DNA of 64,000 nucleotides from an uncultured Roseburia sp. (GTDB taxonomy: Bacteria; Bacillota; Clostridia; Lachnospirales; Lachnospiraceae). The stretch covers positions 62,001 through 126,000 of the forward strand of contig CANSSP010000001.1 of the NCBI GenBank assembly GCA_947649645.1, written 5' to 3'. Within the stretch, counting starts at the first letter, position 1. Every line of letters starts with the position of its first letter. A program made the translations under genes and the position numbers. Positions 4,078 through 61,544 of the stretch are shown here, one piece after another. The notes beneath the pieces are model-generated. The model was not told the origin of the DNA, made no database searches, and worked only from the letters and a program-made list of their open reading frames with translations.

Positions 4078-5835
4078 ATGAGTAAAAAAGTGAGCAGACA
4101 GCAGAAGGCGACGCTGGCGAAGGTGCTGCGCTATATCAGACGATACTGGTTTTATCTGGGACTGTCGGTCGTGCTTGCGGCGGTCACGGTGGCTCTGACG
4201 CTTTATCTTCCGATTCTGATCGGGCAGGCAGTCGATAAAATCGTCGGAGCAGGAGAGGTGGATTTTTCGGGGATTTTAAGGATCCTGCGGAAAATGGCTG
4301 TGATGATTGCACTGACGGCGGCGGCGCAGTGGATTATGAATGTCTGTAACAATAAGATTACGTACAATGTCATAAGGGATATCCGCAGGGAGGCGTTTGA
4401 GAAGATTGAGCGTCTTCCCTTAAAATATATTGACGCCCATTCTTACGGGGAGATCGTAAGCCGTGTGATCGCGGACGTCGACCAGTTTGCCGACGGGCTT
4501 CTGATGGGTTTTACACAGTTTTTTACCGGGATTGTCACAATCTTCGGAACACTTCTTTTTATGCTGACCATCAGTGTGAAAATCACCGCGGCGGTGGTGA
4601 TTATCACGCCGGTTTCTCTGTTTGTGGCCAGTTTTATCGCGCAGAGGACTTTTTCAATGTTTCGGCTACAGTCCGAGACGCGGGGGGAGCAGACGGCGTT
4701 TATCGAAGAAATGGTGGGAAACCAGAAGGTTGTACAGGCTTTTTCTCATGAGAGCGAGGCCCTGGAGCAGTTTGACGAGATCAACAGCCGGCTGCAGAAG
4801 TATTCGCTCAGGGCTATTTTCTTTTCGAGCATTACAAACCCGGCGACACGCTTTGTCAACAGCCTTGTCTACGCGACGGTCGGCGTGGTGGGTGCGTTTT
4901 CGGCGATTGCGGGGGGAATCAGCGTCGGACAGCTTTCCAGTCTGCTCAGCTATGCTAATCAGTACACCAAGCCCTTTAACGAGATTTCCGGTGTGATCAC
5001 GGAGCTGCAGAATGCGCTGGCCTGTGCCGCGCGGGTGTTTGAGCTGATGGAAGAAGAGGCGGAGGTTTCTGACGCGCCGGATGCACAGACTTTAAAAGAG
5101 GCGGACGGGAGCGTGGAACTGGAGCACGTCTGTTTCTCTTATGTGCCCGGCATGAAGCTGATCGAAGACTTTAATCTCACCGTAAAACCAGGACAGAGAG
5201 TGGCGATCGTAGGGCCGACAGGCTGCGGGAAGACGACGCTGATCAATCTTCTGATGCGGTTTTATGATGTAAACAGCGGGGAGATCCGAGTCAGCGGGAT
5301 ACCGATGCGGGAACTGACGCGAAAGAGTCTGCGGAGCAATTACGGAATGGTGCTCCAGGAGACATGGCTCAGAAGCGGGACGATCCGCGATAACATTACG
5401 ATGGGAAAAGAAGGCGCGACCGATGAAGAAGTGATCGCGGCCGCGAAGGCTTCCCACGCCCACAGCTTTATCAGGCGTCTGCCGGACGGATATGACACGG
5501 TGATCGCGGAGGACGGTGGAAATCTCTCGCAGGGACAAAAGCAGCTTCTGTGTATCACGCGCGTCATGCTGTGTCTGCCGCCGATGCTGATTCTTGACGA
5601 GGCGACGTCCTCGATCGACACGCGCACTGAGATACGGATTCAGAAAGCATTTGCGCGGATGATGGAGGGACGCACAAGTTTTATCGTGGCACACAGGCTC
5701 TCGACGATACAGGAGGCCGATATGATCCTTGTCATGAAAGACGGGAGCGTCATAGAACAGGGAAACCACGAGGAACTTCTGGCAAAGAACGGGTTTTATG
5801 CAAACCTGTATCAGAGCCAGTTTGTACAGGCATAA
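4078..5835 (+). CDS. ABC exporter half-transporter, canonical ATPase subunit
   Basis: 585 residues, same architecture as its neighbour: six membrane helices, then Walker A GPTGCGKTT (about 379), signature LSQGQKQL (about 483), Walker B LILDEATSSID with the catalytic Glu, and the switch His in VAHRLST. It supplies the intact Glu and His missing in the preceding subunit, supporting a heterodimer. The longer reading frame starts at 3997 inside the upstream gene, but the ATG at 4078 has GGAGGG just upstream and begins 31 bases after the previous stop, so it is preferred. Likely one operon with the previous gene. Confidence 0.88.
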   Translation: MSKKVSRQQKATLAKVLRYIRRYWFYLGLSVVLAAVTVALTLYLPILIGQAVDKIVGAGEVDFSGILRILRKMAVMIALTAAAQWIMNVCNNKITYNVIRDIRREAFEKIERLPLKYIDAHSYGEIVSRVIADVDQFADGLLMGFTQFFTGIVTIFGTLLFMLTISVKITAAVVIITPVSLFVASFIAQRTFSMFRLQSETRGEQTAFIEEMVGNQKVVQAFSHESEALEQFDEINSRLQKYSLRAIFFSSITNPATRFVNSLVYATVGVVGAFSAIAGGISVGQLSSLLSYANQYTKPFNEISGVITELQNALACAARVFELMEEEAEVSDAPDAQTLKEADGSVELEHVCFSYVPGMKLIEDFNLTVKPGQRVAIVGPTGCGKTTLINLLMRFYDVNSGEIRVSGIPMRELTRKSLRSNYGMVLQETWLRSGTIRDNITMGKEGATDEEVIAAAKASHAHSFIRRLPDGYDTVIAEDGGNLSQGQKQLLCITRVMLCLPPMLILDEATSSIDTRTEIRIQKAFARMMEGRTSFIVAHRLSTIQEADMILVMKDGSVIEQGNHEELLAKNGFYANLYQSQFVQA

Positions 5836-5850
5836 TGAAAGAATGATTCC

Positions 5851-7197
5851 ATGAAAAAAAAGAAGAGCAGCCAGCCGTCGGATGAGCCGGTAAAGGCGGA
5901 TGGCAGAAAAAGAAAACCGAGAGTGCTAAAGAAGGATATACGCTGGGAACGACTGGACAATACGGCCCATCTTTTTCCGGTGATTGCCGGTGAGAGCATG
6001 AGCAACGTCTACCGGATCAGCGTGACGCTGACGGAACAGGTGGATCCCGGACTGCTGCAGGAAGCTCTTGATATTGTGCTGCCGAAGTTTGACGGTTTTA
6101 ACCTTCGTTTAAGGCAGGGCGTTTTCTGGTATTATTTTGAGGAAAACGGCAAGCCGGCGCCGCGGGTGCGGATGGAAAATATGTTTCCATGCCGTTTTAT
6201 CCGTCAGAATCAGAACCGCAGCTATCTGTTCAGGGTTACTTATTATAAATACAGAATCAATCTTGAAGTATTTCATGTGCTCACAGACGGAATGGGAGGA
6301 ATCAGTTTTTTAAAGGAGCTGACTTATCAGTATCTGCGTCTGGCGCATCCGCAGCTTGCCGCACAGGTGGGAGATGCCCTGAGCGCAGACACGTCCCTGA
6401 ACCGCGAGGACAGCTTTTTAAAGAATTACAAGAAAAGTCATGCCAGGGGATATCAGTCAAAGAAGGCGTATCTGATCAAAGGTGAGAGGCTGCGTCCCGG
6501 CGAATTCGGGGTGATGCATGGCTATATGAAGGTATCGGAATTAAAAGAAGTCTGCCGGCGATATGGCGTCAGCATCAATGAATATCTGGTGGGTGTTTTT
6601 GTATGGAGCGTTTATACGGAGTGTATGCATGGGATGGCTTCGGAAAAGCCGGTTCGTGTCGCCGTTCCGGTCAACCTGCGGCCCTATTTTAATTCCATTA
6701 CGACCAAAAATTTTTTTGTCATGGTTTCGGCGGAGTTTCATCCCACAAAAGACGTGTATACGTTTGAAGAAGTCTTAAAGACTGTGCAGGGGAGCCTGCG
6801 CAGTCAGATTGACAGAGAGCATCTGGAAGAACTTTTTTCTTACAATGTCTCAAATGAAAAGCTCTGGATTGCCCGGGCTGTTCCGCTGTTTCTGAAAAAT
6901 ATGGCGATGCGTTATATCTATACGACGTCGGCGCTGGCGAACACGACGACGATTACGAACATCGGCAATATTACAGTCGCGGAGGAGTATCGCCCGTATG
7001 TGGAAATGTTTCATGCGTTCCTGGCGATGTCAAAGGGGCAGCACCTTAAGGGAACGATCTGTTCCTATGGAGATACGCTGGTGTTCAGCTTTAGTTATGA
7101 CCTGGTTGACCCGTCGGTGCAGAGAGGATTTTTCCGCAAAGTGGCGTCCGACGGAATCAGCGTGGAATTGGAGAGCAATGGGGTGAATTATGAGTAA
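5851..7197 (+). CDS. Condensation/alcohol acetyltransferase-like acyltransferase
   Basis: 448 residues beginning with a lysine-rich, probably disordered tail (1-40). The HxxxDG motif of the condensation/PapA5/WES acyltransferase superfamily is seen as H142-V-L-T-D146-G. This family transfers acyl groups from CoA or a carrier protein to alcohols or amines. The stop overlaps the start of the DUF6320 gene (ATGAGTAA), and an HSL-type esterase follows, suggesting a three-gene unit that makes and trims an acyl ester. No membrane segment is seen, so a cytosolic or peripheral enzyme is likely. Start at 5851 has only a weak ribosome-binding site. The substrate is unknown. Confidence 0.7.
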   Translation: MKKKKSSQPSDEPVKADGRKRKPRVLKKDIRWERLDNTAHLFPVIAGESMSNVYRISVTLTEQVDPGLLQEALDIVLPKFDGFNLRLRQGVFWYYFEENGKPAPRVRMENMFPCRFIRQNQNRSYLFRVTYYKYRINLEVFHVLTDGMGGISFLKELTYQYLRLAHPQLAAQVGDALSADTSLNREDSFLKNYKKSHARGYQSKKAYLIKGERLRPGEFGVMHGYMKVSELKEVCRRYGVSINEYLVGVFVWSVYTECMHGMASEKPVRVAVPVNLRPYFNSITTKNFFVMVSAEFHPTKDVYTFEEVLKTVQGSLRSQIDREHLEELFSYNVSNEKLWIARAVPLFLKNMAMRYIYTTSALANTTTITNIGNITVAEEYRPYVEMFHAFLAMSKGQHLKGTICSYGDTLVFSFSYDLVDPSVQRGFFRKVASDGISVELESNGVNYE

Positions 7198-51021: not shown

Positions 51022-52058
51022 TATGGTGAGTTCCAGAAGACGATGGATGGCGGTATTTCTGACTGTCCTTCTGGTGTTTTCCGGCTGCGGCAGTCCGGAG
51101 AACGATACGAAAAAGGAACCGGCAGCACAGACAAGGGAAGTATCCTCTGCGTTCCGTGGGATAGGGGGATCGGGACTGTCAGCGGATGAACTGAAAGAAT
51201 GCGGGGCGGTATCTTATGACGGGCCGGTGGAGTTCCATGATCCGGTGACGGAGGAGATGCTGCGGAACATGACCGGGAAGCCGGAAGGCGAGGTGCTGCG
51301 CAGTGATCTGCAGAAAATTCATGCCATCTACTGGCGGAACGATCGTTACTGGTCTGATCTGCAGATCCTTGATGATGCAGTACCGTGGGAACCTGGAAAG
51401 GGCTACTGGCAGCAGTGTGGCCAGCCCGAAACACTGGAGGATTTTGCCCTGTGCGACAATCTGCAGTGGCTGTCGCTCGGCAGGCTGGAAGTGCCGTCCC
51501 TGGAGCCGCTGGCCTCGCTGACGCAGCTGGAGTGGATTGAATTTGAGGGAGCGGCTGTGACGGCGGAGCGGCTGGAAGAGCTGGCACTTCTGGAAGAAGT
51601 GAAGGCATTCCGCATGGGAAACGGAGAAGTTACGGAGGTGGCCGGCTTTACGGACGGCAGTTTCCTTCTGCCGATGGCGGACCGTCTGGTATATCTGGAT
51701 ATCAACGGCGGGATTGAGTGGAATCCGGAAGTGCTGGCGCAGATGACAAAGCTGGAAGTACTGGTTCTGGCGAATGCCGGAGATCTCGCTTTTCTGACAG
51801 AACTGACAGAGCTGAAAGAACTGAGCCTGTATGCATGTACCGCCAGGGACTGGGGTCCTCTTGGGACGCTGCAGCAGCTTGAATATCTGTCGATTTTGGG
51901 CAATGAGAACACGCCGGCTTCCGTGACGCTGGACGATCTGCGGCCGCTTTCCGGCCTTGCATACCTTGGGCTGAGTATGGCCGGTCTGGAGAAGGAGCAT
52001 ACCCGTGAGGAGATCATCGACGCGCTTCCCGGCCTGACGGGACTTTATATTATGTGAT
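51022..52058 (+). repeat. Perfect 1,037-bp tandem duplication, copy 1
   Basis: Identical to 52159-53195 as read. Identity begins one base before the ATG and ends one base after the stop codon; flanking sequence differs beyond that. All reading frames on both strands translate identically, so there are no silent differences. Confidence 0.95.
51023..52057 (+). CDS. Leucine-rich-repeat-like lipoprotein, copy 1
   Basis: 344 residues. Signal peptide with lipobox VFSGC (Cys about 22), a charged linker, then from about residue 140 a series of leucine-rich strands about 22-25 residues apart (LQWLSLGRLEV, LEWIEFEGAAV, LEVLVLANAG, LKELSLYACTA, LEYLSILGNEN). It should sit on the outer face of the membrane and bind a protein or glycan. 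Function unknown. GGGAGGGG precedes the ATG. Confidence 0.82.
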   Translation: MVSSRRRWMAVFLTVLLVFSGCGSPENDTKKEPAAQTREVSSAFRGIGGSGLSADELKECGAVSYDGPVEFHDPVTEEMLRNMTGKPEGEVLRSDLQKIHAIYWRNDRYWSDLQILDDAVPWEPGKGYWQQCGQPETLEDFALCDNLQWLSLGRLEVPSLEPLASLTQLEWIEFEGAAVTAERLEELALLEEVKAFRMGNGEVTEVAGFTDGSFLLPMADRLVYLDINGGIEWNPEVLAQMTKLEVLVLANAGDLAFLTELTELKELSLYACTARDWGPLGTLQQLEYLSILGNENTPASVTLDDLRPLSGLAYLGLSMAGLEKEHTREEIIDALPGLTGLYIM

Positions 52059-52158: not shown

Positions 52159-53195
52159 TATGGTGAGTTCCAGAAGACGATGGATGGCGGTATTTCTGAC
52201 TGTCCTTCTGGTGTTTTCCGGCTGCGGCAGTCCGGAGAACGATACGAAAAAGGAACCGGCAGCACAGACAAGGGAAGTATCCTCTGCGTTCCGTGGGATA
52301 GGGGGATCGGGACTGTCAGCGGATGAACTGAAAGAATGCGGGGCGGTATCTTATGACGGGCCGGTGGAGTTCCATGATCCGGTGACGGAGGAGATGCTGC
52401 GGAACATGACCGGGAAGCCGGAAGGCGAGGTGCTGCGCAGTGATCTGCAGAAAATTCATGCCATCTACTGGCGGAACGATCGTTACTGGTCTGATCTGCA
52501 GATCCTTGATGATGCAGTACCGTGGGAACCTGGAAAGGGCTACTGGCAGCAGTGTGGCCAGCCCGAAACACTGGAGGATTTTGCCCTGTGCGACAATCTG
52601 CAGTGGCTGTCGCTCGGCAGGCTGGAAGTGCCGTCCCTGGAGCCGCTGGCCTCGCTGACGCAGCTGGAGTGGATTGAATTTGAGGGAGCGGCTGTGACGG
52701 CGGAGCGGCTGGAAGAGCTGGCACTTCTGGAAGAAGTGAAGGCATTCCGCATGGGAAACGGAGAAGTTACGGAGGTGGCCGGCTTTACGGACGGCAGTTT
52801 CCTTCTGCCGATGGCGGACCGTCTGGTATATCTGGATATCAACGGCGGGATTGAGTGGAATCCGGAAGTGCTGGCGCAGATGACAAAGCTGGAAGTACTG
52901 GTTCTGGCGAATGCCGGAGATCTCGCTTTTCTGACAGAACTGACAGAGCTGAAAGAACTGAGCCTGTATGCATGTACCGCCAGGGACTGGGGTCCTCTTG
53001 GGACGCTGCAGCAGCTTGAATATCTGTCGATTTTGGGCAATGAGAACACGCCGGCTTCCGTGACGCTGGACGATCTGCGGCCGCTTTCCGGCCTTGCATA
53101 CCTTGGGCTGAGTATGGCCGGTCTGGAGAAGGAGCATACCCGTGAGGAGATCATCGACGCGCTTCCCGGCCTGACGGGACTTTATATTATGTGAT
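52159..53195 (+). repeat. Perfect 1,037-bp tandem duplication, copy 2
   Basis: Second copy; 100 bases separate the two. The spacer includes the hairpin TTCCGATGC (52059-52067) / GCATCGGAA (52077-52085). Confidence 0.95.
52160..53194 (+). CDS. Leucine-rich-repeat-like lipoprotein, copy 2
   Basis: Same 344-residue product as the preceding gene, with no difference at any base. Its upstream region differs from that of copy 1 (GGGGGAGAGG site, different 5-prime flank), so the two could be expressed at different levels. It lies 76 bases before the ABC importer genes, suggesting the lipoprotein works with, or is regulated like, that transporter. Confidence 0.82.
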   Translation: MVSSRRRWMAVFLTVLLVFSGCGSPENDTKKEPAAQTREVSSAFRGIGGSGLSADELKECGAVSYDGPVEFHDPVTEEMLRNMTGKPEGEVLRSDLQKIHAIYWRNDRYWSDLQILDDAVPWEPGKGYWQQCGQPETLEDFALCDNLQWLSLGRLEVPSLEPLASLTQLEWIEFEGAAVTAERLEELALLEEVKAFRMGNGEVTEVAGFTDGSFLLPMADRLVYLDINGGIEWNPEVLAQMTKLEVLVLANAGDLAFLTELTELKELSLYACTARDWGPLGTLQQLEYLSILGNENTPASVTLDDLRPLSGLAYLGLSMAGLEKEHTREEIIDALPGLTGLYIM

Positions 53196-55431: not shown

Positions 55432-56189
55432 AAAAGACAGTCAGAAAGTGGGCCGGTTCGTCCGTGATCCTGCTGGCCGCTGCTGCGGCGCTTGGCCCGG
55501 TACTTTATCTGCTCTGGGGCTGTTTTTCGGATCCGCAGGGATTCTGGCTGACATTTCTGCGGACGCCGGAGTATCTGTATAAATTCTGGAACAGTCTGGG
55601 GATCTGCGCGGTGATCACGGCCGGACAGCTCCTGGTGAGCTGTATGGGGGGGCTTGCGCTTGCAAAATATCCGCTTCCCGGTAAGCGTTTTCTGATCGGG
55701 GCGCTCGTGGTTGTGCTGCTGCTTCCGCTGCAGGTTACATTGATGCCTTCTTATCTGATTCTGGACAGAATGGGACTTCTGGATACGGTCTGGGCGCTGA
55801 TTCTGCCCGCGGTGTTCTCACCGTTTGGAACAATTGTCATGTGGATGACATTCAGAGGGGTGCCGGACAGTCTGATGGATGCCGCACAAATAGACGGAGC
55901 AGGCGTGTGGGCGCTGCTCTTTCAGATTATGGTGCCTGCCGGGCGCAGCGGAGCGGCCAGCGTCCTTTTGCTGACATTTATCGATGCGTGGAATATGGCA
56001 GAACAGCCGATGGTGTTTTTAAGCGATGTGTCAGAATATCCTCTGAGTGTGTTTCTGGCTTCGCTGGGACGGGAGGGATTTTCGCTCAGTTTTCACAGCG
56101 GGCTGCTATCCATGCTCCCCGCGGTGCTTCTGCTTCTTGCTTTCAGAGAAGAGCTTGTGCAGGGCGGCGGACTTCTTCTGGAAAAGTGA
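55428..56189 (+). CDS. ABC importer permease 2 (MalG/UgpE type)
   Basis: 253 residues, six hydrophobic segments, EAA-type loop DSLMDAAQIDGAGVWALLFQI near residue 150. AAAGGAGG is 5 bases before the ATG at 55428, which overlaps the previous stop by 4 bases. No ATPase gene is present in the cluster, so a shared MsiK-type ATPase encoded elsewhere is probable. Confidence 0.85.
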   Translation: MKKTVRKWAGSSVILLAAAAALGPVLYLLWGCFSDPQGFWLTFLRTPEYLYKFWNSLGICAVITAGQLLVSCMGGLALAKYPLPGKRFLIGALVVVLLLPLQVTLMPSYLILDRMGLLDTVWALILPAVFSPFGTIVMWMTFRGVPDSLMDAAQIDGAGVWALLFQIMVPAGRSGAASVLLLTFIDAWNMAEQPMVFLSDVSEYPLSVFLASLGREGFSLSFHSGLLSMLPAVLLLLAFREELVQGGGLLLEK

Positions 56190-56214
56190 GGATGTTGGAA
56201 AGGGGACTACGGAT

Positions 56215-56601
56215 ATGGGGGGAGAAAAACGATTTGCAAAAATCCTGGCGATCGGAACGTGTATTGTGCTTCTGATCTGTACGGCGGCGTCACAGGTGAT
56301 CTACTGGCGTATGCTGCCAGACGTACAGGCTGTGGAGGCACACTGGCAGGGCGTTGGATTTGTGCTGCCGCAGGAAGCTGTGTTTGCGGAGCCGGAGGGG
56401 ACGTGTGTTTATTGTATTGAAGAAAAACAAGGTCGCTTTGGCCCGAGGTATCTGCTAAGGGCTGTTCTGGTGACGGTGGAAGAGACCAATGCCAGAGAGG
56501 GAACGGTTACGGTACGCGGAATTTACCAGGAGGGGCAGATTTATGCCGTGAATGCGGATGCACCGCTGCAGAACGGGGCGGAAGTGAAGGTTGTTCCATG
56601 A
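56215..56601 (+). CDS. Small membrane-anchored protein of unknown function
   Basis: 128 residues: one N-terminal membrane helix (about 10-28, ILAIGTCIVLLICTAASQVIYW), then an extracytoplasmic beta-rich domain ending NGAEVKVVP, which looks like a biotinyl-lipoyl/HlyD-type barrel edge. Last gene of the ABC importer unit; perhaps an accessory component. Not recognised. ATG 56215 has AAAGGGG upstream. Confidence 0.6.
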   Translation: MGGEKRFAKILAIGTCIVLLICTAASQVIYWRMLPDVQAVEAHWQGVGFVLPQEAVFAEPEGTCVYCIEEKQGRFGPRYLLRAVLVTVEETNAREGTVTVRGIYQEGQIYAVNADAPLQNGAEVKVVP

Positions 56602-56681
56602 GGTATCACATCGGTTCTGGGAACGTGTTTACAGATCCCGGTCCGATGTTTTCAAAGGTGGAATTTTAAAGAGCAGTAAAA

Positions 56682-56734
56682 CAGAAAGTGCCATTGAGAG
56701 AGCATATGTTCTCTTGAAGGGGCTTTCTTTTTTT
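56682..56734 (+). terminator. Terminator of the ABC importer operon
   Basis: Imperfect long stem AGAAAG...CTTTCT with inner GAGAG/CTCTT pairs, followed by a seven-T run. Confidence 0.75.
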
Positions 56735-56792
56735 GTGCAGTTTTATCCGGGTTATAGATAATTTAAGAGCAGATTTGCGGATATATTTTCTC

Positions 56793-56801
56793 TGGTATAA
56801 T
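56793..56801 (+). promoter_or_regulatory. Extended -10 promoter element pointing into the invertible segment
   Basis: TGGTATAAT (56793-56801) with only a weak -35 (TTTGCG, 16 bases upstream). It lies outside the left inverted repeat, and its transcript would cross the repeat toward the recombinase gene in the present orientation. Confidence 0.5.
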
Positions 56802-56820
56802 GATCTAAAAAAATTGCGTA

Positions 56821-56842
56821 GAACTGCAGGTTCTACGCAAAA
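56821..56842 (+). repeat. Left inverted repeat / recombination site
   Basis: 22 bases, GAACTGCAGG...ACGCAAAA; its exact reverse complement is at 58268-58289. The left copy is also part of a perfect dyad, TTGCGTAGAAC (56814-56824), spacer TGCAG, GTTCTACGCAA (56830-56840), the 11-5-11 layout of a tyrosine recombinase crossover site. Confidence 0.88.
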
Positions 56843-56867
56843 TATTACAATGAAATAAACCATTGAT

Positions 56868-56897
56868 ATCATAACATTACCGATTTTTTTTGTCAAT
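56868..56897 (-). promoter_or_regulatory. Candidate switch promoter inside the invertible segment (now pointing left)
   Basis: Minus strand TTGACA (56892-56897), 18-base spacer, TATGAT (56868-56873). Now it fires leftward through the left repeat, antisense to the end of the ABC operon, with no gene to serve. After inversion it would read through the right repeat into the glycosyltransferase gene, with a leader of about 220 bases. Confidence 0.65.
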
Positions 56898-56943
56898 ATC
56901 CGTCCCCATATTTCGACAAATTCGTCAGTCTGGACGGATATTT
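56896..56943. repeat. 11-bp inverted repeat overlapping the switch promoter
   Basis: AATATCCGTCC (56896-56906) and GGACGGATATT (56933-56943), a perfect pair 26 bases apart; the first arm touches the -35 box. It could be an operator or a hairpin in the recombinase mRNA. The rest of 56944-57090 has no supported gene; an 18-codon frame (MGEKRKPLFIPKRYGMGT) near 56957 is noted only. Confidence 0.6.
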
Positions 56944-57090
56944 TAAACAGATCGGATTATGGGTGAGAAGAGAAAGCCTCTATTCATTCCCAAAAGATAT
57001 GGTATGGGTACATGATCTGAAGAAGTGGCAGGGGAATAAGGGTCACAATGGGGGTATCGTCAGATTTGATGAAATGGAAAGGAGAGAATG

Positions 57091-58248
57091 ATGTCTAAAA
57101 GAGGAGAAAATATACGGAAGCGTAAAGATGGACGCTGGGAGGCAAGATATATAGCTGACAGAAATATGGATAACAAGGCTGTATATCGTTCTGTATATGG
57201 AAAAACATATGCAGAGGCAAAGGAAAAAATGCAAAAAGAAAAATTTTGTATGAGGAAGGAAGGACACGGGAAACAGGAGGCGGTGAGCTTTTGCACAGTC
57301 CTGGGAAACTGGCTGACAAATAATAAGATTCGCTATAAACCGTCAACGTACACAAAATATAAATATATCATTGAAAAACATATTGTTCCCGAACTGGGCA
57401 GCAGAAAGGTTGCGACTCTGAATGCAGTGACCATCAATTCATTTTTGGACAGGAAGCTGAAGAATGGCGATTTACGTGATCAGAAACCATTATCTTCTTC
57501 TTATGTAAGAACAATGGCGCTGATCATTCGTTCGGCTCTGAATTATGCCATTTCAGAAGGAATGTGTTTATCGTTTCGAGCGGAAATTCACAAGCCTGCC
57601 GCAAAAAAGGCGGCTGTCTGCACTCTGAATCACAAAGATTTCGATGATCTGAGCACATACTGCATGGAGCATCTGACTTCAACCAATATTGGTATTCTGG
57701 TTTCTTTAAATACAGGCCTGCGGATTGGTGAAATATGTGCGCTGCGCTGGTCTGATATCGATATACCGGACCACCTGCTGTATGTAAATAATACGATTTC
57801 AAGATTTCAGGATGAGGCGAATAAATGCAGATGGGTTATTGAAAGTCCGAAAACGATGTCTTCATTTCGCGTAATTCCTATTTCAGAAAAACTTATGGCA
57901 ACTCTGCTGCATGTCAGAACATTTTCCCGCTCGGAATACGTTGCGTCTGAAAAAGACGGATTTGTGAATCCAAGAACTTTTGAATATCGTTTTCATAAGG
58001 CGCTGCATGCCTGCAAGGTGCCCGATATAAATTTTCACGGGCTTCGTCATACGTTTGCCACAAGATGCGTAGAGGGAGGAATGGATATCAAGACCCTGAG
58101 TGAGATTCTTGGTCATTCCAATGTCAGTATTACTTTAAACACATACGTGCATTCATCATTGGAGCGAAAAAAAGCACAGATTGAGAAAGTCGAAAAGTTT
58201 TTTGAAGAGGGTCAGGATCAGAGTCGCTCTGAGAAAGCATGCCCCTGA
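57091..58248 (+). CDS. Tyrosine recombinase / integrase
   Basis: 385 residues. N-terminal arm-binding domain (RGENIRKRKDGRWEARYI, YGKTYAEAKEKMQ), SAM-like core-binding domain (about 70-165), and catalytic domain with R211 (TGLRIGEIC), H316-x-x-R319 (HGLRHTF), H342 (LGHSNV) and Y352. All catalytic residues are present. It is the only gene inside the inverted repeats, so it probably flips its own segment. ATG 57091 lies 6 bases after AAAGGAG; ATG 57088 is adjacent and less well spaced. Confidence 0.9.
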   Translation: MSKRGENIRKRKDGRWEARYIADRNMDNKAVYRSVYGKTYAEAKEKMQKEKFCMRKEGHGKQEAVSFCTVLGNWLTNNKIRYKPSTYTKYKYIIEKHIVPELGSRKVATLNAVTINSFLDRKLKNGDLRDQKPLSSSYVRTMALIIRSALNYAISEGMCLSFRAEIHKPAAKKAAVCTLNHKDFDDLSTYCMEHLTSTNIGILVSLNTGLRIGEICALRWSDIDIPDHLLYVNNTISRFQDEANKCRWVIESPKTMSSFRVIPISEKLMATLLHVRTFSRSEYVASEKDGFVNPRTFEYRFHKALHACKVPDINFHGLRHTFATRCVEGGMDIKTLSEILGHSNVSITLNTYVHSSLERKKAQIEKVEKFFEEGQDQSRSEKACP

Positions 58249-58267
58249 TTCGCTTTGTAAATAATAG

Positions 58268-58289
58268 TTTTGCGTAGAACCTGCAGTTC
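58268..58289 (-). repeat. Right inverted repeat / recombination site
   Basis: Exact reverse complement of 56821-56842. Its inner arm TTGCGTAGAAC (58270-58280) is intact; the spacer reads CTGCA, the reverse complement of the left TGCAG; the outer arm diverges after GTTC. The repeat stops matching at both edges. Confidence 0.88.
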
Positions 58290-58470
58290 AGCAACAATTG
58301 TTATGGCGTTATTGAGACAGTATGTGCAGTATACGGAGCAGATATTCTTTCATTATATCAAATGTGCTCTTTCCGGAAATGGAAAACAGGTATGATTTTC
58401 ACATCAGTCTGCGGCCAGATGTTTTGGGATGTTGTGTGTATTTTGGTGTTGGATTTGGGAGGAGGATCAG

Positions 58471-60066
58471 ATGGTGGGAAAGTCATTGCCGAAAGCAGCT
58501 GTTTTGTATATTGCATTTGTACTTTTGATGATAGTTGTAATATGCTTAAAGTCAAATTACTATATTGATGAGATATACTCATATGGACTGTCGAATCACA
58601 CGGGAGAGGGTATCAATATTACGTTTGAATATGATAAGACTTATACCCCGGGTGCCTCTGTGTTCCGGGATTATATGGAAGTGCAGTCGGGAGAACAGTT
58701 TGATTATTCCTGTGTCTGGGCAAATCAGACAGATGATGTGCATCCCCCATTTTATTATGCGATTCTTCACACCATATGTTCTGTTTTTCCGGATACATTT
58801 TCAAAATGGTATGCCGGGAGTATCAATATTGTATTTGCGATACTGGTGTTATTTGTGATGCGAAAACAGATTCAGCTTCTGACGGATAACAAGTATATTC
58901 TGACAATCATGTCAGTTTCGTTTGTATTACTGAGTGGAATCCTGCATGCGGTGGCTTACTTCAGGATGTATATCATGGCTATGCTCTGGGTTACACTGCT
59001 GAGCTATATATTTGTAAAGCAGGTAGATGAAAAACACGATTTCCGGTTTTACCGATGCCTTTACCTGGTTACCGCTGCGGGTGCTCTTACGCATTATTAC
59101 GTGATTATATATGCTTTTTTTATTTCATGCATGTATGGCGTTTATCTGTTGTGGGAGAAGAGGATAAAGGAGGTCCTGTTTTTTTGTCTGACAATGGCGC
59201 TTGCGGCAGGGACATCGATTGTGGTTTTTCCTGCAATGATACAGCATATGTTTTACGAGTACAGAGGAGTAGAAGCGATAGGCAACCTGGCTGCAGCCAG
59301 ATATGATAATTACTGGGATGCGCTTAAAGCATTTTTTACGGTTCTGAATCAGCAGGTATTTGGGGGCATGCTGGGTCATATCATAATCAGTTTTTTAATC
59401 CTGTCTGCTGTGATATATTTCAGGGATGAGAGGAACGCCGGGGAAGAATGGATGTCTGTGAGAGATATCTTTCTCAGATATGACAGAAAGTGTGTCAAAC
59501 GCTATGTGCTTCTCGTTATCCCTTGTTTTTTATATTTTATGCTTGTGTCTAAAATGTCCTTTGTTGTGGCAGACAGATATATTTCACCGATATACGCTGT
59601 TTCTTACGTCTGTATAATGTGTATGATATTTACGGTTTTGAATGGTTTTCTCAAGGGCAATGCATTTATTGTGTTAACGGTCAGTATCAGTGCGCTGCTT
59701 ATCGTCGGGAGTTATGTATCTGCCGGGTGGACGTACCTTTTTTGGGACAGCAGAGCCTTTCTTGCTGCGGCAGAAGAACACGGCAATTATGACTGTATCT
59801 GCGTGTTTGAGGGGGAAAACTGGCTGCTTCATCCGGAATTTGCCGAATATTCTGTCTACAAAAGTGTAACGTTTATTTCGCCTGATGAACTGCGTGAGGA
59901 GGGGATCGCGAAATGGGATTCCGGTGAAGGGGTCATCGTTTCCTTTATCGGAAATTCTTATAATCTGGATGAACGGGTACAGGAGCTTATGTGGAATAAT
60001 GGTTATGGAGGTTATATATATCTGGGAACTTTTGGATTTGATAATTCTTATTTTTTGCATAAATAG
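58471..60066 (+). CDS. GT-C membrane glycosyltransferase (PMT/ArnT-like)
   Basis: 531 residues, about ten to eleven membrane helices. The first outer loop has the acidic pair D33-E34 (YYIDEIYSYG), and DDVHPPFYY lies near residue 90; both are typical of GT39/PMT_2-type enzymes that use a lipid-linked sugar outside the membrane. It would add sugar to a surface protein or glycan. GGGAGGAGG precedes the ATG at 58471; the longer frame from 58429 is rejected. No strong promoter is seen in 58290-58470; the flipped segment promoter could supply one. A terminator follows, so it is a single-gene unit. Confidence 0.8.
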   Translation: MVGKSLPKAAVLYIAFVLLMIVVICLKSNYYIDEIYSYGLSNHTGEGINITFEYDKTYTPGASVFRDYMEVQSGEQFDYSCVWANQTDDVHPPFYYAILHTICSVFPDTFSKWYAGSINIVFAILVLFVMRKQIQLLTDNKYILTIMSVSFVLLSGILHAVAYFRMYIMAMLWVTLLSYIFVKQVDEKHDFRFYRCLYLVTAAGALTHYYVIIYAFFISCMYGVYLLWEKRIKEVLFFCLTMALAAGTSIVVFPAMIQHMFYEYRGVEAIGNLAAARYDNYWDALKAFFTVLNQQVFGGMLGHIIISFLILSAVIYFRDERNAGEEWMSVRDIFLRYDRKCVKRYVLLVIPCFLYFMLVSKMSFVVADRYISPIYAVSYVCIMCMIFTVLNGFLKGNAFIVLTVSISALLIVGSYVSAGWTYLFWDSRAFLAAAEEHGNYDCICVFEGENWLLHPEFAEYSVYKSVTFISPDELREEGIAKWDSGEGVIVSFIGNSYNLDERVQELMWNNGYGGYIYLGTFGFDNSYFLHK

Positions 60067-60100
60067 AAGAAAATACGGAACGGTCATAAGCATCATATGA

Positions 60101-60147
60101 CAGACCGCCGCTGTGGATTTACACCATGTGCGGCGGTCTGTTTTTTT
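60101..60147 (+). terminator. Terminator of the glycosyltransferase gene
   Basis: CAGACCGCCGC (60101-60111) / GCGGCGGTCTG (60130-60140) then seven T. Confidence 0.9.
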
Positions 60148-60187
60148 GTTTTCGGGAAATGCTCTGAAAATTGCCTTTGACGGCGTC

Positions 60188-61288
60188 TTAACGTTCATAA
60201 ATCGTGTAATGATGCCTGTGAAGCAGATGTATGGCGTCATCCAGCGACGCCTTATCGTACATTTCCAGCCGCAGGACGCCCTGCTCAAATTCGCGGTTGT
60301 GAATAATACCGATATTTTTGATGTTTAAGTGATTGCTGGCGAGGATGGTAGCGACCGTGGCGATACCGCCCGCTTCGTCCAGCAGATCGAGGTAAAGTTC
60401 ATAGACGCTTTTTAATGCGCCGCTGCGCGGAGTTATCGTGATGGAATCGCGGTAGTCTTTTGCGGCGGTAAAAGCATCCAGGAGAGCCTGGCTGTCGGAA
60501 TTTTCAATCTGTGCTCTCATGCGCTCTAATATTGTGATATAATCATCGGTCAGCTTCAGAAGCTGTTCTTTATTTGAAAGACAGATATTTTCCCACATGA
60601 CGGGAGATGAGGATGCGATCCGCGTGATATCTTTAAATCCTCCGGCCGCGATCGTTTTCATCGTCTCGTTTTTATCGTCCGCCTCACGCACCAGGTTCAC
60701 AAGGCTGTAGGCGATGATGTGCGGCAGGTGGCTGATGGCCGCCGTGGCATAATCGTGCGCCTCATAGTCTAAGACCAGCGGGATGGCGCCCAGGGAGATC
60801 ACCAGCCGGCGAAATGCGTCGACGGCCTCAGGATCAGACATTGCGGTCGGGGTGATAATATAGTAGGCGTTTTCGAGCAGATATTCGTTGGCGTTTAAAA
60901 GACCTGTCTTTTCGGAACCCGCCATCGGATGGCCGCCGATAAATTGTTTTTCCATGCCGAGGGCCTCTGCGGCGCGGTGAATATCTGTCTTGACGCTGCC
61001 TACGTCTGTGATGATGCAGCCTTCTCTGACATGTCCCTTTAATCGGCGCAGATATTCGATGTTTTTCTGCACCGGCGTACACAAAAAAATGTAATCGCAG
61101 TCATAAAAATCTTCGATCTCACAGAGGGAGCTGTTTTCGATCAGATTTTCCTGATAGGCCTGTGTAACAGTGGACAGGTGTCCTGCCGTAGCGATGACGG
61201 TGAGATCCGGGTGAAGTGTTTTTAAACGTCTGGCGATGGAACCGCCTATGAGTCCCAGTCCGATAAATCCGATTTTTCTGAATGACAT
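60188..61288 (-). CDS. tyrA: Prephenate dehydrogenase with ACT domain
   Basis: 366 residues. NAD-binding GLGLIGGSIA near residue 9, IIGGHPMAG-type loop (FIGGHPMAGSEKTG), HLPHIIAYSL helix, then a C-terminal ACT domain (about 295-366) that usually mediates tyrosine feedback. It converts prephenate to 4-hydroxyphenylpyruvate. ATG 61288 lies 6 bases after GGAGG; the frame to 61414 overlaps the promoter. Confidence 0.93.
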   Translation of the reverse strand: MSFRKIGFIGLGLIGGSIARRLKTLHPDLTVIATAGHLSTVTQAYQENLIENSSLCEIEDFYDCDYIFLCTPVQKNIEYLRRLKGHVREGCIITDVGSVKTDIHRAAEALGMEKQFIGGHPMAGSEKTGLLNANEYLLENAYYIITPTAMSDPEAVDAFRRLVISLGAIPLVLDYEAHDYATAAISHLPHIIAYSLVNLVREADDKNETMKTIAAGGFKDITRIASSSPVMWENICLSNKEQLLKLTDDYITILERMRAQIENSDSQALLDAFTAAKDYRDSITITPRSGALKSVYELYLDLLDEAGGIATVATILASNHLNIKNIGIIHNREFEQGVLRLEMYDKASLDDAIHLLHRHHYTIYER

Positions 61289-61404
61289 TGTGAACCTCCA
61301 TGTTCTTCCTATGAGGAATTGATCTGTTTGCTCTGCAGTCAGAACGAAATAGCTTTCGTCTGTATCATCTTCAGGAATCCTCTGAAGGCTGACGGATGAA
61401 TCTG

Positions 61405-61433
61405 AGTATATCATATTCAGCGACCGGATTCAA
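61405..61433 (-). promoter_or_regulatory. Promoter of tyrA
   Basis: Minus strand TTGAAT (61428-61433), 17-base spacer, TATACT (61405-61410), leaving a leader of about 110 bases. No T-box signature was recognised in it. Confidence 0.7.
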
Positions 61434-61544
61434 TTTTCTTTCAGGAGATTCGCGGGTTTTTATGCCGTTGATCTATTACCGTTCATACCTGGTGCGTCTG
61501 TTATCGGCAATCTGTCCTGCAGACGGGATTGCTTATTTCAAGTC

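Follow-up and report, generated by a model that had tools for sequence, protein, structure and literature searches.

Known inversion systems and the Roseburia locus

The locus described here, a tyrosine recombinase gene enclosed by inverted repeats, resembles several known systems for site-specific DNA inversion. It was found in a 64,000-nucleotide (nt) stretch of the genome of an uncultured Roseburia sp. (contig CANSSP010000001.1, positions 62,001 to 126,000), which is referred to below as the window. Segment 56821-58289 of the window very probably constitutes a self-encoded promoter-inversion switch, assembled in the OFF orientation for the gene at 58471. In function, it is similar to the Hin H-segment of Salmonella, which also contains an outward promoter, so that, as at the window locus, both the recombinase gene and the promoter are inside, and inversion either links the next gene to the promoter or cuts it off. 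Hin differs from the window enzyme in being a serine recombinase that acts on unrelated sites of the hix type and controls a flagellin operon, whereas the window enzyme is of the tyrosine type (PF00589) and is not a Hin member. In an excerpt of a published account, Hin is named to illustrate a recombinase encoded within its own segment (PMC5903667).

The fimS switch of Escherichia coli, inverted by FimB/FimE, and the RecV switches of Clostridioides difficile share with the window locus a tyrosine recombinase, short inverted sites and an invertible promoter or leader. The gene of FimB is located outside its invertible DNA, and the same holds for RecV, whereas the window recombinase is encoded inside the segment. 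According to the excerpt mentioned above, RecV works on several separate switches (PMC5903667). In the part of another report that describes the hCom2 community, inverton group 139, paired with tyrosine invertase group 35, has 32 of its 33 invertons in Clostridia and a dedicated recombinase nearby; the printed example has repeats of about 26 base pairs (bp) with about 205 bp between them (PMC11892184), which is too short for a recombinase gene inside. This group, the nearest published set identified, resembles the window locus in its tyrosine-type recombinase; its printed example has repeats of similar length and differs in that the recombinase is outside.

The recombinase of the pneumococcal SpnIII hsdS locus, likewise of the tyrosine type, rearranges coding parts of a restriction specificity gene rather than a promoter. 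Like the window enzyme, this site-specific recombinase is encoded within its locus, as stated in an excerpt of PMC11868660; in the window, by contrast, it is a promoter that would be inverted. The nearest solved sequence relatives of the window recombinase are integrases of the Tn916/Tn1549 type, and no element was found around its gene. Such integrases serve the integration and excision of conjugative elements. Among the top matches listed in the literature search, none described a promoter segment of Clostridia that is inverted by a tyrosine recombinase encoded within it; Jiang et al. 2019 (Science 363:181) may contain such cases.

Recombination sites, recombinase and promoter

The locus is composed of the following features:

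56814..56840, left recombination site, a 27-bp full palindrome TTGCGTAGAAC-TGCAG-GTTCTACGCAA
56821..56842, + strand, left 22-bp inverted repeat, 100% complementary to the right repeat
56821..58289, putative invertible segment of 1469 bp with both repeats counted, delimited from the repeats and the loci of relatives
56868..56896, - strand, predicted outward promoter inside the left end: TTGACA-17-TATGAT, extended -10, 11/12 match
57088..58248, + strand, tyrosine recombinase of 386 amino acids (aa) with matches to PF00589 and PF14659
58268..58289, - strand, right 22-bp inverted repeat, which covers the inner arm of the right site and its spacer CTGCA and extends over GTTC of the outer arm
58471..60066, + strand, putative target, a multi-pass membrane protein of 531 aa, possibly a GT-C glycosyltransferase (PMT/ArnT-like)

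The recombinase frame is intact, with all six catalytic residues in place (R212, K255, H317, R320, H343 and Y353), and according to the open reading frames of the window its gene is the only one in the segment. The only perfect inverted 18-mers spaced by at most 3 kb in the 64-kb window are those of the 22-bp pair, and none occurred in 20 first-order Markov simulations of the window. The spacers are opposed, TGCAG in the left site and CTGCA in the right one, which is the arrangement that inversion requires. These observations bear out three elements of the original prediction, namely a tyrosine recombinase with all catalytic residues, perfect 22-bp repeats enclosing it, and spacers facing opposite ways.

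The outward promoter is the best-scoring match in the region 55500-61500, where promoter-like sites as such are not above chance (11 found versus 12.3 expected from shuffles). It stands out by its score and, in relatives, by its position. Leftwards, the nearest gene occupies the + strand and has its end at 56601; as assembled, the promoter is thus not aimed at any gene open to expression. Since it points left, towards the palindromic site, the assembled orientation would be OFF for the gene at 58471. This gene has a good Shine-Dalgarno sequence, and no + strand promoter matching at 9/12 or more was found in 58246-58470, the best candidate reaching 8/12 with a 15-nt spacer. The earlier description of a strong promoter directed leftward and away from genes is therefore correct except for its spacing, which is 17 and not 18, and the absence of a clear own promoter for the target gene is likewise confirmed.

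The proposed mechanism includes the following steps: (i) the recombinase would bind the two sites of about 27 bp and exchange strands within the 5-nt spacer, (ii) the segment would be inverted together with the gene of the recombinase itself, (iii) in the OFF state, the leftward transcript would probably be stopped by the palindrome and the T-run after about 50 nt, and (iv) in the ON state, the inverted promoter would face right and, by arithmetic, produce a leader of approximately 220 nt up to the gene at 58471.

Two further promoter-like elements are aimed into the segment from outside:

56793..56801, + strand, extended -10 TGGTATAAT, outside the left site
58352..58379, - strand, weak -35 TTTCCG with extended -10 TGATATAAT, outside the right site

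The first of them may transcribe the recombinase gene in the present orientation and the second one after inversion; with inward extended -10 sites on both sides, the recombinase would have one of them upstream whichever way the segment is turned. This arrangement would fit another output of the switch, whereby the segment inverts but the gene at 58471 is expressed from a weak promoter of its own or by transcription reading through from the recombinase, and inversion mainly changes recombinase expression. In line with such read-through, no + strand terminator-like site was found between the recombinase and the target. The inward pair is not a feature of the cassette family described below, being present in 1/53 and 2/53 loci, and recombinase transcription from these sites is a conjecture. 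In the family as a whole, it is the outward promoters that are enriched, the target side offers 8/12 at best, and homologous neighbours recur where the outward promoter would point; we thus regard a different output as quite unlikely.

Similar cassettes in related genomes

A search of 62 genomes of the genus identified 14 other recombinases in 11 other genomes (E <= 1e-60), and at least 73 relatives were found in 397 family-level genomes. Of the latter, 60 were fetched, and the 13 omitted ones are similar to the query in its later part only; four of these (G175) were fetched afterwards and used in the comparison of cassette and flank inversion only. The first set thus includes 75 loci, namely the window locus, 14 genus recombinases and 60 relatives from the wider family. 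In this family search and in that of the wider class described below, at most four candidates were scored per genome, so that copy numbers are lower bounds.

Inverted repeats scoring at least 14 within 700 nt of the recombinase were observed at 55/75 loci, compared to 10/75 for the direct-repeat control. A threshold of at least 17, picked after this first count and then applied unchanged to the second set, retained 53/75 loci, with a median repeat of 26 bp and a median segment of 1460 bp; the left repeat precedes the recombinase by a median of 229 nt. Inside the left end, a promoter match of at least 11/12 is directed outward at 29/53 loci and inward at none (10/1060 in mononucleotide shuffles). 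Comparison of five cassette regions gave 33/53 for the outward left end against 3.2% of shuffles, whereas the other regions yielded 0 to 2 of 53; inward matches outside the right repeat were found at 2/53 loci versus 0.2% of shuffles. The identity of the recombinases correlates with the similarity of their sites across the 53 loci (Spearman 0.42), a value not reached in any of 500 permutations (maximum 0.20). The four closest recombinases, 45-47% identical, bear the arm CGTAGAAC of the window's site.

For the second set, a search of 391 genomes of the wider class listed 39 relatives, of which 29 loci were compared. The organization was alike, with repeats of at least 17 at 22/29 loci (control 0/29) and a promoter match of at least 11 directed outward at 10/22 and inward at 2/22. 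In this set, L191 coincides with L132, and the repeats of L174 and L186 are very long and of a different kind. Judging from these comparisons, the window locus is not unique but is one of a widespread set of predicted self-encoded tyrosine-recombinase invertons. The suggestion of a possibly undescribed single-gene form can therefore not be maintained for this locus: the build with the recombinase inside recurs in the family and the class, and is also the arrangement of Hin.

Several cassettes have unusual site arrangements. At L174 and L186, the imperfect inverted repeats around the recombinase are very long, with arms measuring 166 and 342 bp, which suggests switches alternating between two similar flanking genes. 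L069 has two left sites (5129-5157 and 5230-5256), one right site (6400-6428) and one recombinase, and hence more than one inversion product is possible there.

An inverted pair of loci and neighbouring genes

Two paralogous loci of one genome, L102 and L104, have 1431-bp cassettes that are 95% identical on one strand, whereas their flanks match on the opposite strand (2523 bp at 91.8% and 248 bp at 93.5%). The breakpoints fall within the 26-bp sites: each inner arm has moved with the segment, each outer arm has remained beside its flank, and this partition points to a crossover between the arms. A helicase gene, with 94% protein identity between the two loci, is adjacent to the promoter end in L102 (ON) and to the opposite end in L104 (OFF). 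A rough rule based on the nearest gene labelled the 53 loci as OFF (24), ON (8), both (15) or none (6); by this rule L102 was labelled none, whereas homology makes it ON. Homologous neighbours are found in both states: TadZ-like genes are ON at L078 and OFF at L079, helicases are ON at L066 and OFF at L068, L089, L104 and L115, and members of a 450-aa family are ON at L071, L108 and L130 and OFF at L105, L117, L118, L129 and L134. The proposal that inversion would aim the promoter at the gene at 58471, and that the window represents the OFF state, thus gains support from dozens of relatives, including a pair in opposite orientations. The mechanism is well supported by this family evidence. For the window copy itself, we infer that it inverts, that its promoter and terminator work, and that the target is a glycosyltransferase with a surface glycan as its substrate.

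The same comparisons bear on the possibility that the recombinase is the residual integrase of a prophage or integrative element and that its inverted repeats are incidental. The best solved relatives of the recombinase, PDB entries 6en0/6emz (E 2.5e-18), are labelled 'Int protein' and are presumably Int of Tn1549; distant relatives occur in 1945/50,697 phage records, and the G+C content of the cassette and target is 0.41, below that of the flanks (0.55 and 0.50). On the other hand, the segment has no gene besides that of the recombinase, perfect repeats are absent from the simulations, inverted repeats flank 53/75 loci as opposed to the weaker direct repeats at 10/75, and at the family level this explanation is contradicted by the L102/L104 pair. 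An integrase remnant is accordingly very unlikely.

Other loci show related patterns. L214 and L216 of one genome share a cassette that is 87% identical over 1322 bp on the same strand, with pieces of one flank on the other strand, and are likely to be a second inverted pair. One helicase family adjoins the cassettes at L066, L068, L089, L104, L115 and L124; four helicase-associated (HA) repeats were identified in the L066 protein, which the defence models PbeA and mREase_IV match in part.

Observations against a functional switch

Several observations weigh against the interpretation of the window locus as a promoter-inversion switch. The cassette is single-copy in its own genome, where a search identified neither a second pair of sites nor a second close recombinase, and the window copy is known in one orientation. 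The nearest recombinase among 61 genus mates is only 46% identical. Such repeats are lacking at 20 of the 75 related loci, at least one of which, L061, is at a contig end, and shared ancestry can account for part of the co-divergence of recombinases and sites. Three orthologues of the target (L073, L074 and L075 in G024, G051 and G052; 49-56% identity) have no adjoining cassette in the fetched stretches that were searched.

The right site has the same inner arm and spacer as the left one, and its outer arm is imperfect, GTTCAGCAAC replacing GTTCTACGCAA; in 3/4 closest relatives, the perfect arm is outside on both sides. The drift of this arm might mean that a formerly invertible segment is now locked or decaying in the OFF state, and within the 62 genus genomes searched for the recombinase there is neither a close copy nor a second orientation. 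At the same time, the recombinase has retained its frame and all catalytic residues, the sites of the four closest relatives likewise have an imperfect arm, and the 22-bp repeat, including the spacer, is still perfect; a locked switch is therefore unlikely.

The predicted termination of the leftward transcript also finds no counterpart in the family. Read on the - strand, the left site is a palindrome followed by seven T, a feature that the original prediction does not mention, and the corresponding RNA folds at -15.5 kcal/mol (z -5.9) with seven U after it, so that, read leftwards, the site may be a terminator-like local feature. A family trend is absent: terminator-like sites are on the far side in 4/24 OFF loci versus 2/24 on the target side, and in 0/8 versus 2/8 ON loci. 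A family-wide orientation-dependent terminator at the far-side site was rejected, as it is not supported by the counts across the family, and for this reason the terminator idea is retained for the window locus only. An Rfam scan of the segment yielded no match at the gathering score and two matches below it. A search of plasmid DNA returned a single 62-bp match, to an integrase gene.

Putative target gene

The original prediction named the product of the gene at 58471 a surface glycosyltransferase. The protein has 10 hydropathy segments, and its first outer loop carries an acidic motif (D33, E34), which we take to be a mark of GT-C enzymes. In an alignment of 20 members, i.e., the target and 19 of 33 listed homologues, D33, E34 and R165 are invariant in all 20 and H91-P-P is nearly invariant. 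The target itself matches no family in Pfam and NCBIfam, PMT_2 (PF13231) is matched by only 2/20 aligned members (best 1.1e-6), and the five matches of a PDB profile search (best E 0.083) include no glycosyltransferase. A structure model from the single sequence, with a mean predicted local distance difference test (pLDDT) score of 39, was too poor for use. The multi-pass membrane topology and the acidic motif thus agree with the earlier assignment, whereas a family match is available for 2 of the 20 relatives and not for the target; these data suggest a GT-C glycosyltransferase as the likeliest identity.

The left-hand permease was found in one other genome, G050, of 40 relatives searched (own included). 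In G050, the left-hand transporter genes are present with neither cassette nor target. Together with the orthologues that lack a cassette, this indicates that the pairing of cassette and target is probably local to this lineage; as both have a G+C content of 0.41, compared with 0.55 and 0.50 at the sides, the two may have arrived together.

Elsewhere in the window, positions 51022-52058 and 52159-53195 form an exact 1037-bp tandem duplication that contains a whole 344-aa lipoprotein-like gene twice, and may reflect either a recent event or an assembly artefact.

TnpB-like neighbours of related cassettes

The 450-aa family mentioned above is TnpB/Cas12f-like and is located beside nine cassettes (L071, L072, L105, L108, L117, L118, L129, L130 and L134), and L097 has a shortened copy of the gene. 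PF07282 was detected in 3/3 scanned members and the guided_TnpB model in 9/9 (E <= 0.001); the bit score of the first member was 51.8 versus a cut-off of 100. In the alignment, the presumed RuvC D, E and D positions are replaced in 9/9 proteins; the first two positions were assigned by motif reading and the third also via profile alignment to 7wju. These proteins are thus apparently nuclease-dead.

A conserved non-coding stretch follows the TnpB-like gene, its motif being present in 11 of the loci scanned, which correspond to ten places, as L053 is the same place as L097. The stretch has no Rfam match at the gathering score. Ten sequences gave a GGCAT/ATGCC stem with five predicted pairs, two of them with compensated changes, and no longer consensus fold was found in them. 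In several of these loci, sugar-nucleotide and nucleotidyltransferase-like genes come next, as seen by eye. An independent search revealed 11 such TnpB-like genes in 8/299 genomes, three of them already known; among the eight new ones, the RNA motif follows in three and a recombinase is within 1.5 kb in one, i.e., the association recurs but is not general. In an excerpt of PMC13418256, hin-linked inversions adjoin csrA-tldR loci. These loci parallel the TnpB-like subset, but with a serine recombinase.

Implications

In the known promoter switches of Clostridia, as far as the cited excerpts describe them, the recombinase is encoded elsewhere (RecV) or nearby (group 139). A broader interpretation, which we offer as possible but still doubtful, is that the window locus belongs to a large unrecognised class, probably of Clostridia, comprising autonomous Int-like cassettes with their own sites and one outward promoter that stand before unrelated loci, such as glycan genes, Tad pili, sortase/adhesin genes and HA-repeat helicases. 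One subset would govern nuclease-dead TnpB-like proteins accompanied by a conserved, unlisted RNA, in many cases in front of genes for surface glycans; if this is true, RNA-guided regulation would itself be phase-variable. A compact unit of enzyme, sites and promoter could be moved before any gene, and assemblies reveal which way it is oriented, so that phase variation in this bacterial group would become countable from genomes. The putative targets, i.e., glycan genes, pili, adhesins, helicases and dead TnpB-like proteins, would suit bet-hedging against phages and surroundings.

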